From the NCBI GenBank assembly GCA_024636005.1, contig JAGXHV010000032.1, positions 1 to 64,000 on the forward strand: a DNA stretch of 64,000 bases, in the 5' to 3' direction. Under the pieces are notes generated by a model. That model was given only the letters and a program-made list of their open reading frames with translations. It did not search any database and was not told where the DNA came from. The position numbers were made by a program, and so were the translations under genes. Positions within the stretch are counted from its first letter, which is position 1; each line of letters opens with the position of its first letter. Positions 2,397 through 7,221 of this stretch are shown here, in pieces. This DNA is from Bacillota bacterium. GTDB lineage: Bacteria > Bacillota > Clostridia > Peptostreptococcales > Acidaminobacteraceae.

Positions 2397-3449
2397 TTGA
2401 GATTCTTAAAAAAACAGTGCAATTAATCAAGAAAGCATGTCGGACGGAAGATATTATAGCAAGATTTGGAAATGAAATGACACAAGCAGATTCACAAAGA
2501 TGGCACAAAAGGATGGTGGAGTGCTGATGCTGTAAAGCTTACAGAAAACCGATTTATGGGTTTTGTTAAAGACATTACTGATCAGATGCGGGCAGAAGAA
2601 GAAACTCTGGAAAGTCAAAACTTCTTAGTGAACTTATTAGAGGCTATTCCAGCACCGGTTTTTTATAAGGATATTGAAGGTCGATACTTAGGATTTAATA
2701 TGGCCTATGAGGATTTCTTCGGCAAGTCAAAGGAGGAGTTGATTGGTAAGAATGTTTTCGACATCAGCCCAGTGGAATTGGCTACGGTCTACCATGCTAA
2801 GGATGAAGAGTTATTCAAACGACTGGGAATCCAGACATATGAGACTCAAGTCAAAGACGCTCAAAGCATTTTTCATGATGTTGTCTTCAACAAAGCCTCC
2901 ACAGTTGACTCCTTTGGCTATGAAACTAAAAATGATGAGAAAGAAAAAATTCAAGATACATTCAAAAAATATAAGAGGGAGCAGTCGCATTCAATTAAAG
3001 TTAGCAAAATCTGTGAAGGCATTGCAACCAGGATGGATTTCAATGAACATGATGTCTCTCAGATAAGAACAGCTGGGCTTATGCATGATATTGGGAAAAT
3101 AGATATTGAAGAAGAATTCAATAAAATCAAGAGGCATCCTGAAAAAGGATATAGAATAGTAAGGATAGTGAAACAGTTTACTGAAATAGCCAAGTATGTT
3201 CTGCAACATCATGAGAAATGGGATGGTACAGGATACCCAAGAGGACTTAAAGGCGAAGAAATTTCTGTACCAGCAAGGATAATAGCAGTCGCAGATGCCT
3301 ATGATGCTATGACTACTAATAGAGTATATGCAAAAGCGTTAAGTAAGGAAGAAGCCATAAATGAAATAAAGAGATGTTCTGGTACACAGTTTGACCCCGA
3401 AATTGTAGAGGTGTTCATGAAAATATTGGTAACTGAATATATTACCTAA
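2397..3449 (+). pseudogene. scrambled GGDEF / PAS / HD-GYP signalling protein remnant
   Basis: Three pieces of a c-di-GMP-type sensor lie in a row but not in one frame. At 2398-2480 a frame reads FEILKKTVQLIKKACR and then IIARFGNE, the middle of a GGDEF domain that stops before the active site. A frame opening at 2481 reads DGTKGWWSADAVKL, the end of a PAS domain. It continues from ATG 2556 into a second PAS (about residues 20-105 of the 297-residue frame) and then, after an abrupt join near residue 115, an HD-GYP domain with HDIGK and HHEKWDGTGYP. The HD-GYP is about ten residues short after HDIGK. The 2556 frame could still be translated, but it lacks an own ribosome binding site. The missing GGDEF half, the frame change and the internal deletion argue for a pseudogene. 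Confidence 0.7.
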
Positions 3450-3623
3450 CAGTCAGCGAAGAACAAAAAACAGAGACACCTGAGACATCTGGAGTTCCTG
3501 TAGACGGAAGACCCTAACTGCAAATCTTAGAAAGGAGTGAGTCCATTGAATTCAGGAAGTACTATACTACATTAAGAATAGGTTATTTAAAAAGGTATAA
3601 AGAACTAAAAGGAGATGTGTTTT

Positions 3624-4145
3624 ATGATTAAGAAAAAATTGATAATAATTCTAGTTCTTGTAATGGCGTTAGCTTTTCCTTTAGCGGCGTTCGCAGCGCC
3701 GACGTCTGTGTCGCTCGAGATCACCGGTGGTCTATTGACGATCAGTGTCCCCACAGGCGTTGTTGATCTCGGTACTTTTGTCGACACCGTAGAGGGAGGA
3801 ACCATCAGTACGCAACTGGGCGAGGTACAGGTTAGTGACGCCCGAAACGCTGCCGCCGGTTCAGGCTGGGTTGCTAGTGTCATTTCTACCGCCTTCACAC
3901 CGGCGGCGGGACCGACGATTGCTGCTAGTGCTATCGGCTATGAAGTCGGAGTAATTACTAAGGTCGGCACCGCCACCTATACTGCGAACAATCCGAGCGA
4001 CCTCACCGCAGTCAGCCCGGCTGTCACGGCAACAGGGATCACCGGCAACAACTCGGCCACCTGGAACCCGACCATTGTCGTGACGATTCCCGGCGGCATG
4101 GCCATTGGAGTGTACACTGCCACGATCACCCATTCAGTCCTATAG
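3624..4145 (+). CDS. secreted WxL-like surface protein, GC-rich mature part on AT-rich signal peptide
   Basis: The protein has 173 residues from ATG 3624, placed 9 bases after AAAAGGAG; an in-frame ATG at 3615 is too close to the site. Residues 1-25 are a typical Firmicutes signal peptide (MIKKK, hydrophobic core, cleavage after AFA). The mature part is Ala/Thr/Val/Gly-rich with VSDARNAAAGSGWVASV and a closing GNNSATWNPTIVVTIP...TITHSV. This is the pattern of small secreted proteins that resemble WxL proteins in actinobacteria and Chloroflexi and pair with a DUF916-like partner, as here. The WxL tripeptide itself is not strictly present. Base composition jumps from about one-third to about 60% GC just behind the signal peptide, so the mature domain appears foreign. 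The likely role is a cell-surface protein. The exact family is uncertain. Confidence 0.65.
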   Translation: MIKKKLIIILVLVMALAFPLAAFAAPTSVSLEITGGLLTISVPTGVVDLGTFVDTVEGGTISTQLGEVQVSDARNAAAGSGWVASVISTAFTPAAGPTIAASAIGYEVGVITKVGTATYTANNPSDLTAVSPAVTATGITGNNSATWNPTIVVTIPGGMAIGVYTATITHSVL

Positions 4146-4176
4146 CAACATGTGGACCTGGTGGCTGGTTGGCTGT

Positions 4177-4248
4177 GCTGATCAGTTGGAATATGAAGGC
4201 TTTAGTCGCGAACAAGCAGTTTATGGAGTGTAACAGAATGGTTTTTAA
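4177..4248 (+). pseudogene. remnant of an Ltp-family (PF07553-like) lipoprotein C-terminus
   Basis: Between the two GC-rich genes a short frame reads ADQLEYEGFSREQAVYGV, stop, QNGF, stop. This matches the repeat of Ltp/host-cell-surface lipoproteins common in Firmicutes (L-x-Y-E-G-F-S-x-E-x-A-x-Y-G-V-x-x-x-G). Here a TAA replaces one codon in the repeat, and nothing upstream is left of the gene. It is most simply the tail of a host gene whose body was lost or replaced. Confidence 0.5.
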
Positions 4249-4268
4249 ATAATGGATCAACTCTCGCA

Positions 4269-4309
4269 AACTAGAAGTAGGCATGTAAAATGTATGTCTA
4301 CTTCTAGTT
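4269..4309. repeat. long inverted repeat
   Basis: AACTAGAAGTAG at 4269-4280 is perfectly complementary to CTACTTCTAGTT at 4298-4309. With G-U pairs the stem extends inward to about 17 bp around a short A-rich loop. No T-run follows on either side, so it is not a standard terminator. It sits in the AT-rich spacer between the two foreign-looking genes. Confidence 0.7.
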
Positions 4310-4373
4310 GTATCAGGCGACAAGAGTCCCTATTTTTCAAAAAGGCAAAAGAATGAGAAGGAGATGCAATAAT

Positions 4374-5393
4374 ATGATTAATAGAAAGTTGTTAGTTAGA
4401 CTTTTTTTTGTAATTTGCTGTATTTTTGCCGCAGTGGTCCAAGTGCCGGTACAGGCATCGGCTGAGGCTCTTCATCTAGGTGTCTCGGACCCCAGAGGAG
4501 GCATCGGGGTCCGGCTCCTACCCGAGCCAGGGGACGCGGGTAGGGACCCCCGAGCACAGTTATATATCGTTGAACATCTCCCACCAGGATCGGTGCTCAG
4601 TCGCCGCATCGAGGTTATCAACACCACGCAGGACCCCGCCACCGTATCGCTGTATGCCGCTGGCGCCACGATTGAAGATGGACACTTCGTGGGAGCGGAC
4701 GATCGCAGCGCGAATGACCTGTCGACGTGGAGTTCTGTGCTCCCTGCCAGTGTGGACCTCCCGGGCGGCGGCAGCGCGATTGTCACCGTGATGATTACCG
4801 TGCCCTCTGATGCCGAACCGGGGGAGCGATTCGCGGCGGTGTGGGCTGAGGTCCGCTCTGGCACCACTTCAGGAATCTTGCAGATCAACCGGGTAGGGAT
4901 CCGTCTCTATGTCTCGGTGGGACTAGGTGCGGCTCCTGCTTCGGACTTCACAATTGTGTCACTGACAGCCCAGCGATCACTTGACGGCTTTCCTTCAGTG
5001 GTCGCGACTGTACGCAACACCGGCGGCCGGGCGCTCGACATTGTGGGCTCACTCGAGCTGCTGAATGGCCCAGGAGGGCTTCGAGCAGGACCATTTCCAG
5101 TCAACCTCGGCACTACCCTCTCAGTTGGGGACATTGAACAGGTGACCATCGAGCTTGATCAGCGTATTCCCAATGGCCCGTGGGACGCGGAGTTGACCTT
5201 GCATAGTGGGCTACTTGAAAGAAGCGCGAAGGCACTCATCACCTTTCCGGAATCCGGATCGGAGCTACCGGTACCGGCGACGGACACAACAGGGGCAAGA
5301 TGGCCTTTCGCCGTCGCCGCTGGCTTCATCCTGCTCGTCGCACTCCCCATACTCCCCACACTCTGGCGACACCAGCGCCGAACAAGAATCTAG
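4374..5393 (+). CDS. DUF916-like (WxL-interacting type) membrane-anchored surface protein
   Basis: The protein has 339 residues from ATG 4374 with AAGGAG ten bases upstream; the frame is open from 4308 but without a better site. The order is: signal peptide (1-~28, AT-rich codons), two beta-sandwich domains (about 30-175 and 180-290), Pro/Thr-rich linker, one C-terminal transmembrane helix (WPFAVAAGFILLVALPILP) and a basic tail RHQRRTRI. This is the architecture of DUF916/WxLIP proteins that bind WxL proteins on the wall. The preceding gene encodes the candidate partner, 228 bases upstream. Codons after the signal peptide are strongly GC-rich (many CGC, GCG, CCG), unlike every other gene in the window except its partner. 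This indicates acquisition from a high-GC donor, with the signal peptide being of host character. Confidence 0.65.
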   Translation: MINRKLLVRLFFVICCIFAAVVQVPVQASAEALHLGVSDPRGGIGVRLLPEPGDAGRDPRAQLYIVEHLPPGSVLSRRIEVINTTQDPATVSLYAAGATIEDGHFVGADDRSANDLSTWSSVLPASVDLPGGGSAIVTVMITVPSDAEPGERFAAVWAEVRSGTTSGILQINRVGIRLYVSVGLGAAPASDFTIVSLTAQRSLDGFPSVVATVRNTGGRALDIVGSLELLNGPGGLRAGPFPVNLGTTLSVGDIEQVTIELDQRIPNGPWDAELTLHSGLLERSAKALITFPESGSELPVPATDTTGARWPFAVAAGFILLVALPILPTLWRHQRRTRI

Positions 5394-5560: not shown

Positions 5561-5806
5561 ATGAGAGGAATCGAATTGGGCATCTTGATTAGAGGAATAA
5601 TTGTGAATGTAAATCTTTTTATTAGTTCGAAAGTCGAGAATCATGGGTTCAAACATTGTCAGTACGAATATTTTCTTCATATATTCAGCAGTCCGGACAT
5701 TAACCAAATGGAATTGGCACGATTAAAAAATGTCGAAAAAGCAAGTGTGACAAAAGCACTTAAAATTGTAGATGATTTAATGGATGTCAAAACAAAGACA
5801 ATATGA
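5561..5806 (+). pseudogene. truncated MarR-family regulator
   Basis: The 81 residues carry the start of a MarR winged helix: helix-turn-helix text INQMELARLKNVEKASVTKAL is followed by VDDLM and an early stop. The wing and dimerisation helix (another ~60 residues) are missing. An AAGGAG site precedes ATG 5561. It is probably inactive. Sequence behind the stop (5807-5860) still reads like a decayed helical continuation in another frame. Confidence 0.5.
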
Positions 5807-5859
5807 AATGATGAAGAAACAACGTCCCTCATAGAAAATGCGACTTATGATATGGATTA

Positions 5860-5868
5860 TGCTATAAT
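5860..5868 (+). promoter_or_regulatory. extended -10 promoter for the DEAD-box helicase
   Basis: TGCTATAAT is a perfect -10 element with the extended TGn. No clear -35 box is seen at the right distance. It lies 45 bases before the helicase start. Confidence 0.4.
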
Positions 5869-5913
5869 AAACCTTATTACTAGAATAGACAAGCGATTCT
5901 TAAAAGGAGAAAT

Positions 5914-7221
5914 ATGTTATTTGAAGATTTAAATTTAATTGAACCAATAAAGAAAGCCTTAAAAACAAAAGGGTTTACAAAGCCAACACCAATACAATCT
6001 AGAGCTATACCATCTCTTCTTAAGGGAATGGATTTATTGGGTTGTGCTCAAACAGGCACTGGTAAAACTGCAGCTTTTGCTATTCCAATATTGCAAGGTA
6101 TATCATTACAGCATAAGGCTTCAGCAAACCATAGACAGATTCAAGCACTGATAATAGCACCAACAAGAGAGTTAGCTATACAGATAGCAGACAGTTTTGA
6201 AGAATATGGGGAGAATTTGACTCTTAAAACACTAGTGATCTACGGTGGAGTTTCTCAAAATCCTCAAACAAAAGAGTTAACAAAGGGAATAGATATACTT
6301 GTTGCCACACCTGGCAGACTACTGGATTTAATAAACCAAAGATTTGTTAGTTTGAAAAACGTGAAATATTTTGTGCTTGACGAGGCAGATCATATGCTGG
6401 ATATGGGTATGCTTCAAGATGTGAGAAAAATAATTGCGCACCTGCCAAAAGAAAAACAGACAATGTTTTTCTCAGCTACCATGCCAGCCGAAATTGAAAA
6501 ACTTGCCAATTCTATTTTAAAAAGCCCTATCAAAGTAATGGTTACACCGCCATCTTCTACAGTTGAAATCATAGAACAAGAAATATATTATGTTGATCGT
6601 GGAAATAAAGTAAACTTACTTATTGATTTATTGAAAAACAAAGATATAATATCAGCTCTAGTGTTTTCAAGAACTAAGCATGGAGCAAATAAGATTGTCA
6701 AAAATTTAAGTAAAGCGGGGCTTAATGCTGAAGCCATTCATGGTAACAAATCCCAAACTGCTAGACAATTGGCTTTAAACAACTTTAAAGAAAGAAAAAC
6801 CAGAATACTTGTTGCAACAGATATTGCAGCCAGAGGCATTGATATCGAAGAGTTATCTCATGTTATTAATTTTGATTTGCCGGAGGTTCCTGAAACTTAT
6901 GTTCATAGAATAGGTCGTACAGGTAGGGCTAGACGCGGAGGCACAGCAATTTCATTTTGTAGCCAGGCAGAGAAGCCATTATTGAAAAGCATTCAAAAAT
7001 TAACAACAAAATCAATAATAGAAATTAATGACCATGCATATCCTTTAGTAGAAACAAACATAGAAGCGATTGTAAAATCTAATGGTAGAAATACTTCTAA
7101 AAAACCTATGACACAGGACAAACCTAGAAGTATTAGAAGAAACAACGAAATCAAGAAAAAAGTTGCAAGAACTGAAAAACCCCGTTCAAATGTTAAAGGA
7201 TACAAAACGAAGAATGATTAA
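5914..7221 (+). CDS. DEAD-box ATP-dependent RNA helicase
   Basis: This 435-residue protein has all superfamily 2 DEAD-box motifs in order: the Q motif (GFTKPTPIQ), Walker A AQTGTGKT, PTRELAIQ, VATPGRLLD, DEAD with DHMLDMG, SAT, LVFSRTKHGANKI, ATDIAARGID and HRIGRTGRARRGG. RecA-like domains 1 and 2 span about 1-210 and 220-370. The C-terminal ~70 residues are a basic, Lys/Arg/Asn-rich disordered tail, as in RhlE/CshA-type helicases that unwind RNA in ribosome assembly or mRNA decay. Start ATG 5914 follows AAAGGAG. It is a single-gene transcript, ending before the terminator at 7397. Which subfamily (RhlE, CshA, DeaD) cannot be settled by eye; RhlE-like fits length and tail best. Confidence 0.93.
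   Translation: MLFEDLNLIEPIKKALKTKGFTKPTPIQSRAIPSLLKGMDLLGCAQTGTGKTAAFAIPILQGISLQHKASANHRQIQALIIAPTRELAIQIADSFEEYGENLTLKTLVIYGGVSQNPQTKELTKGIDILVATPGRLLDLINQRFVSLKNVKYFVLDEADHMLDMGMLQDVRKIIAHLPKEKQTMFFSATMPAEIEKLANSILKSPIKVMVTPPSSTVEIIEQEIYYVDRGNKVNLLIDLLKNKDIISALVFSRTKHGANKIVKNLSKAGLNAEAIHGNKSQTARQLALNNFKERKTRILVATDIAARGIDIEELSHVINFDLPEVPETYVHRIGRTGRARRGGTAISFCSQAEKPLLKSIQKLTTKSIIEINDHAYPLVETNIEAIVKSNGRNTSKKPMTQDKPRSIRRNNEIKKKVARTEKPRSNVKGYKTKND

Follow-up and report, generated by a model that had tools for sequence, protein, structure and literature searches.

The closest described counterparts of the gene pair analyzed here are the Lactobacillales clusters encoding small WxL proteins and WxLIP (DUF916-DUF3324) proteins (PMC10599100, PMC9772566), in which, as at this locus, the gene for a small secreted β-type protein adjoins one for a two-domain protein; the latter has a membrane helix at its C terminus, a feature that is predicted for the product at this locus. 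A WxL gene cluster is defined by the grouping, within a few genes, of one WxLIP gene and two or more WxL genes, and in the proposed model the WxLIP protein is membrane-anchored and holds its WxL partner (PMC10599100). A second counterpart is the actinobacterial pair of a hypothetical protein and a DUF916 domain-containing protein, found on the Arthrobacter plasmid pA58H3 and on a plasmid of Streptomyces sp. NBC_01650, which shares with the present pair both genes, their order and homology along the whole mature proteins; unlike the present pair, it is GC-rich throughout, has two dissimilar leaders and a short spacer, and carries no Ltp fragment. Transferred genes can also capture promoters or targeting signals, as in the gain of transit peptides during endosymbiotic gene transfer. 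There too a foreign coding body receives a recipient-type start and targeting signal, whereas the case described here is bacterial, has its join inside a Sec signal peptide, and repeats that join in both genes of an operon with related leaders. In a narrow search of the open-access literature, which does not establish absence, no bacterial operon was found described in which related leaders had provided new starts twice. The locus is a real and unusual composite, and we consider it likely that an actinobacterial operon was transferred horizontally and that each of its two genes then received a new head from one of two related low-GC leaders, joined on within the core of the signal peptide.

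The window, that is, the whole 64,000-nucleotide stretch of DNA that was analyzed, is part of a 102-kb contig in a draft assembly of 2.54 Mb (174 contigs, 77% complete), whose gene content suggests a host belonging to Bacillota. Gene 1 (3624–4145, + strand; ATG at 3624, stop codon at 4143–4145) encodes 173 amino acids and gene 2 (4374–5393, + strand; ATG at 4374, stop codon at 5391–5393) encodes 339. In 60-base windows the GC content of both genes rises from 20–25% to 55–65%, and maximum-likelihood breakpoints were placed at 3684 in gene 1 (2-log-unit interval 3660–3687) and at 4428 in gene 2 (interval 4425–4430). The AT-rich start of gene 1 (3624–3683, +; codons 1–20) is 25% GC and is followed by sequence of 59% GC, while that of gene 2 (4374–4427, +; codons 1–18) is 20% GC and is followed by 61%. 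Beyond the breaks, GC3 is 0.62, compared with 0.35 ± 0.05 (maximum 0.45) in the 44 other ORFs of the window, and on this measure the two genes take first and second place among 1,288 ORFs sampled across 1.45 Mb of genome sequence. They also rank first and second among 799 ORFs of that sample for the GC dip at the 5′ end, which measures 0.34; the next value is 0.23 and the mean 0.05. The abrupt change from AT-rich to roughly 60% GC that the original prediction had reported for both genes was thus recovered by windows, breakpoints and genome ranks alike; the break is genuine, and it is exceptional.

The breaks fall within the signal peptides, at a slightly different place from that first proposed. 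The signal peptide of gene 1 reads MIKKKLIIILVLVMALAFPL/AAFA and that of gene 2 MINRKLLVRLFFVICCIF/AAVVQVPVQASA, the slash marking the break in each. The AT-rich start of gene 1 therefore takes in the n-region and the greater part of the hydrophobic core, leaving the GC-rich remainder (3684–4145, +) to encode the end of the signal peptide and the mature WxL-like protein; in gene 2, the AT-rich start covers the first half of the signal peptide, and the GC-rich remainder (4428–5393, +) supplies the second half with its cleavage site ASA, the WxLIP-like body and a predicted C-terminal membrane helix. Given these positions, the composition step lies within the hydrophobic core and the cleavage site in the GC-rich part, so that a join exactly behind the signal peptides, as originally claimed, gives way to one inside the core, after codon 20 of gene 1 and codon 18 of gene 2.

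The GC-rich bodies are of actinobacterial type. Identity to the nearest homologues is 64–66% for gene 1 and about 50–62% for gene 2; tblastn gave 67–72% identity between gene 1 and L065, L066 and L076, and gene 2 has matches in Actinomycetota with E values down to 4e-94 and identities of 44–62%, with some match in 46 of the 397 genomes sampled from that phylum and further homologues on Arthrobacter and Streptomyces plasmids. Within its own phylum gene 2 yields just partial matches of 25–39% identity; there is no match to it among 60 relatives, and none to gene 1 among 398 other Bacillota genomes. Many actinobacterial carriers share the gene order, with gene 1 upstream of gene 2. In phylogenetic trees in which many inner forks lack resolution, gene 2 is placed inside the actinobacterial group as sister to L069 (support 98/95), and gene 1 groups with L065, L066, L068 and L076. 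The original prediction had counted close relatives with the same genes and uniform composition as evidence against it; the only close homologues found are actinobacterial and GC-rich throughout. The pair, nested in the donor group, atypical in composition and absent from relatives in a limited genome sample, thus appears to have been acquired from Actinomycetota by horizontal transfer. No closer donor was found within the family of one homologue carrier, and no phage carrier of the pair was found in viral contigs or phage records. Residues invariant among the homologues are retained at 16 of 17 positions in gene 1 and 58 of 62 in gene 2, the exceptions being conservative, and both bodies have therefore stayed under selection.

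Two features of the actinobacterial copies are recorded here in their own right. On the mobilizable (MOBF) Arthrobacter plasmid pA58H3 (L091:4161–9748) the homologous pair has a gene of the recombinase family on either side, an arrangement that would be plausible for a carrier. The gene 2 copies in L076:1320–3700 and L069:2300–3500 are interrupted or frameshifted, the two halves in L076 lying about 1.1 kb apart; the actinobacterial gene is sometimes disrupted or misassembled.

Comparison with protein families places the two products at the margin of the WxL system. Gene 1 scores 16.5 bits against the WxL domain PF13731 (E = 0.0086), below the curated cut-off of 25, and in place of the two Trp-x-Leu motifs its conserved tryptophans read WVA and WNP; among its homologues, 5 of 12 match the domain (best E value 1.6e-6). 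Gene 2 has no match to PF06030 (WxLIP_PGBD) even at E = 1, while 5 of its 9 homologues do (best 2.9e-4), and its profile reaches only E = 0.56 against the solved EfmWxLIP1. A hydrophobic stretch with a basic tail at about residues 305–336 of gene 2 is modeled as a helix in a low-confidence prediction, the single-sequence structure models of both proteins being poor (pLDDT 41 and 46). A single small-protein gene adjoins gene 2, fewer than the two WxL genes of a defined cluster. The actinobacterial homologues thus resemble the Lactobacillales system through distant profile similarity to PF13731 and PF06030, and the window pair departs from it in having no Trp-x-Leu motifs, scores under the Pfam cut-offs, and a cluster with just a single small protein and without a large WxL protein. 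Of the WxL-like and DUF916-like identities first assigned, distant kinship stands and family membership does not: judged by these profiles, the window proteins are only distant kin of WxL and WxLIP. Distant versions of the pair, with a small β-type secreted protein beside a DUF916-like gene, were also seen in other Bacillota (L003, L004, L006 and L011), which suggests that a two-gene surface module is widespread beyond WxL clusters.

The AT-rich leaders have a history different from that of the bodies. Leader copy 1 (3583–3664, +) consists of 41 untranslated bases with a Shine-Dalgarno sequence (AAAAGGAGATG), the start codon and about 14 codons, and leader copy 2 (4333–4414, +) likewise of untranslated bases with a Shine-Dalgarno sequence (AGAAGGAGATG), the start codon and about 14 codons. 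The two are homologous, aligning over 82 bp, untranslated DNA included, with 60 identities in 81 positions and one single-base gap in each. The alignment scores 32. Pairs drawn from all host leaders (314,821 of them) average 9.0, and the 10,153 signal-peptide leader pairs of the same genome average 9.6, with none of the latter reaching 32; the highest score in 5,000 dinucleotide shuffles was 22. The untranslated part alone exceeds 98.6% of shuffles (its score is equaled or passed in 70 of 5,000) and the coding part 99.8% (in 7 of 5,000). Coding sequences of the actinobacterial homologues have a GC content of 58–77% in their first 60 bases, with the exception of the start of gene 2 on the Arthrobacter plasmid (47%), and no likeness between the two leaders of a pair was found in nine pairs (lowest shuffle fraction 0.05). 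Because the homologues begin GC-rich, the window leaders are alike and the actinobacterial leaders are unlike each other, leaders and bodies must differ in history, and the two window leaders most likely share an ancestor. The alternative in which unrelated low-GC signal-peptide leaders were captured independently, their likeness owing to chance and shared constraint (Shine-Dalgarno sequence, Lys codons and AT-rich hydrophobic codons), gains something from the constraints that both leaders share with low-GC secreted genes in general, as well as from one unrelated host pair that scores 31. It is nonetheless improbable: only 2 of all host leader pairs score at least 30, that pair and a true repeat (score 93), and the signal-peptide pairs and both shuffled partitions given above also stand against it.

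Different ancestry of the 5′ part and the body, together with an in-frame join, places both genes among cases of 5′ leader capture by gene fusion. Foreign mature domains placed twice behind low-GC export leaders, as the original prediction proposed, are strongly supported by the actinobacterial bodies, the GC-rich starts of the homologues and the mutually homologous leaders. Its further claim that the export signals are native to the host is unproven, as a DNA search of the host's own genome (77% complete) and 36 relatives recovered no source copy, and no gene leader in 1.45 Mb resembled them (scores of at most 21), so that no source gene was identified within that range. Three candidates for a wider origin were discarded. 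The leaders are not a piece of a longer duplication, since 3430–3582 and 4143–4332 are no closer to each other than shuffles; the leaders of Ltp genes are unlike those of the window; and a 27-bp exact match of 4401–4427 to a Geoalkalibacter plasmid is intergenic and T-rich and was taken as chance. No sigma-70-type promoter was recognized upstream of gene 1 or gene 2.

The spacer between the genes is also unusual. At 228 bases it compares with about 0–40 bases in most actinobacterial pairs (72 on the Arthrobacter plasmid and about 160 in L067), and in many of these gene 2 starts 0–15 bases past the gene 1 stop codon. Described at first as AT-rich, it is so for most of its length, except for the first 35 or so bases: a stretch of about 34–35 bases directly 3′ of gene 1 (4146–4179, +) is 60% GC and is possibly a leftover of the original start of gene 2. 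It is followed by the truncated 3′ end of a putative Ltp-family lipoprotein gene (4180–4250, +), which retains its own stop codon and is also interrupted by one nonsense codon. This segment matches Pfam PF07553 (Ltp) at E = 0.007 with 16.9 bits, under the 23.2-bit cut-off, and gives an ungapped 73-nt DNA alignment with the Ltp gene of L221 that runs through the stop codon. No Ltp gene was found in the host's own genome or its genus mates, and the low-GC block of about 250 bp, Ltp tail included, may therefore have arrived by a mobile element instead of coming from the host. Next comes a hairpin (4269–4309, unstranded) with a 17-bp stem, a 7-base loop and no T tract, which has a folding z-score of −5.8. 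A search for RNA families gave no match. Gene tail, hairpin and the next gene's leader make up an ordinary low-GC locus layout, here joined into gene 2. As a repeated element the hairpin was rejected, being single-copy in the sampled genome, where perfect hairpins are common. Among these, perfect 31–32 bp hairpins sharing GGGGACAGGTCAAAA (L106:11041–11106, L140:4192–4256 and L198:4624–4692) look like dispersed-repeat or mobile-element palindromes.

A further rival would have the whole pair transferred and only its 5′ ends reshaped in place, through AT mutation pressure together with selection that favored weakly structured mRNA and a signal peptide of host type. Stretches of 18–20 AT-rich codons are about as long as the region in which start-site structure matters, and host genes do have a small dip of their own at the 5′ end (mean 0.05). 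A dip of 0.34, however, is far beyond the range of the genome, and the bodies are just half-way to host GC3; neutral change cannot complete codons 1–20 yet leave the codons that follow. Nor does this account give any reason for the leaders to be alike, untranslated part included, or explain the Ltp tail in the spacer. The suggestion in the original prediction that selection re-shaped both signal peptides leaves the same point unexplained, an 82-bp leader with untranslated DNA common to two unrelated genes, and we judge in-place reshaping to have little chance of being correct. An assembly or binning artefact, to which a 77% complete draft of 174 contigs might be prone, is very unlikely indeed, as 1.8 kb of sequence would have to contain four false joins with AT-rich DNA between, including two that keep the reading frame at corresponding points of the signal peptides. 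The GC-rich parts also have an intermediate GC3 (0.62) and not a donor-like 0.76–0.94, and the leaders are diverged copies, which no assembler makes. Selection-only reshaping and misassembly are both, then, unlikely.

The composition breaks, the separate ancestry of bodies and leaders, the leader homology and the Ltp tail lead us back to the transferred operon with two new heads. On this sequence evidence, an actinobacterial two-gene surface operon, encoding a small WxL-like secreted protein and then a membrane-anchored WxLIP-like partner, would have entered a low-GC lineage, where both genes lost their GC-rich starts and gained an AT-rich leader comprising an untranslated stretch, a Shine-Dalgarno sequence and the first 18–20 codons. 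Each join would have been made by in-frame, illegitimate recombination at a point in the signal peptide's hydrophobic core. The leaders would derive from one sequence, either captured once and then copied before the second gene or taken from two paralogous low-GC genes, and leader 2 sits in the block of about 250 bp that holds the Ltp gene tail, the hairpin and the leader. The order of these events is conjectural, and the re-heading may have taken place in this lineage or in an earlier host of low GC; no intermediate was found. The new starts would provide a translation start readable by the host and a Lys-rich n- and h-region of a Sec signal, with cleavage site and body staying actinobacterial, and expression and export would presumably improve. 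Following the WxLIP model, the gene 1 product is predicted to be secreted, and the gene 2 product to be anchored by its C-terminal helix at the cell surface and to hold it; similar ribosome sites would favor matched expression of the two. One counterpoint to this account is that the leader likeness amounts to 74% in AT-rich, functionally constrained sequence. Body GC3 lies about half-way between the donor-like range and the host value of 0.35, and the leader copies have diverged by 26%; both observations suggest an old event, and both speak against misassembly. A donor of lower GC than those sampled would shorten this GC3-based clock.

Two obstacles confront a GC-rich secreted gene that enters an AT-rich host: its start is structured and poorly initiated, and its signal peptide is foreign. 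The locus looks like a fossil of both being overcome at once, with the signal-peptide core as the place where a join is tolerated. This suggests that acquired secreted proteins may be put to use through the gain of a new start. Whether low-GC bacteria recurrently join short AT-rich leaders in frame within the signal-peptide core of GC-rich secreted genes, and can copy the leader to a sister gene, is a more speculative extension, which we regard as possible though doubtful. Were it true, almost any in-frame join in the core would work, partner proteins would be made from matched starts, and a genome scan for signal peptides that contain a GC step would turn up many composite genes. The locus thereby offers a simple genome-wide test, namely a search for genes with a composition step inside the signal peptide.

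The surroundings of the pair show further irregularities. Downstream, a DEAD-box helicase gene (5836–7221) is 89–90% identical in two congeners (L021 and L022), and the flanks upstream of it in the three genomes are unrelated except for about 80 bp; an empty site was not found in either congener. The locus is a variable place, where illegitimate joins may be common. Between the pair and the helicase, a MarR-like ORF (5561–5806) matches positions 5–39 of a 59-position profile before an early stop and is probably truncated. Upstream of the pair, the PAS match of a PAS and HD-GYP ORF (2556–3449) covers positions 2–48 of a 113-position profile and its HD domain is about 15 residues short, so that the ORF looks internally shortened; further upstream, at about 2400–2490, a short GGDEF-like stretch (RFLKKTVQLIKKACRTEDIIARFGNEM-like) lies among stop codons.
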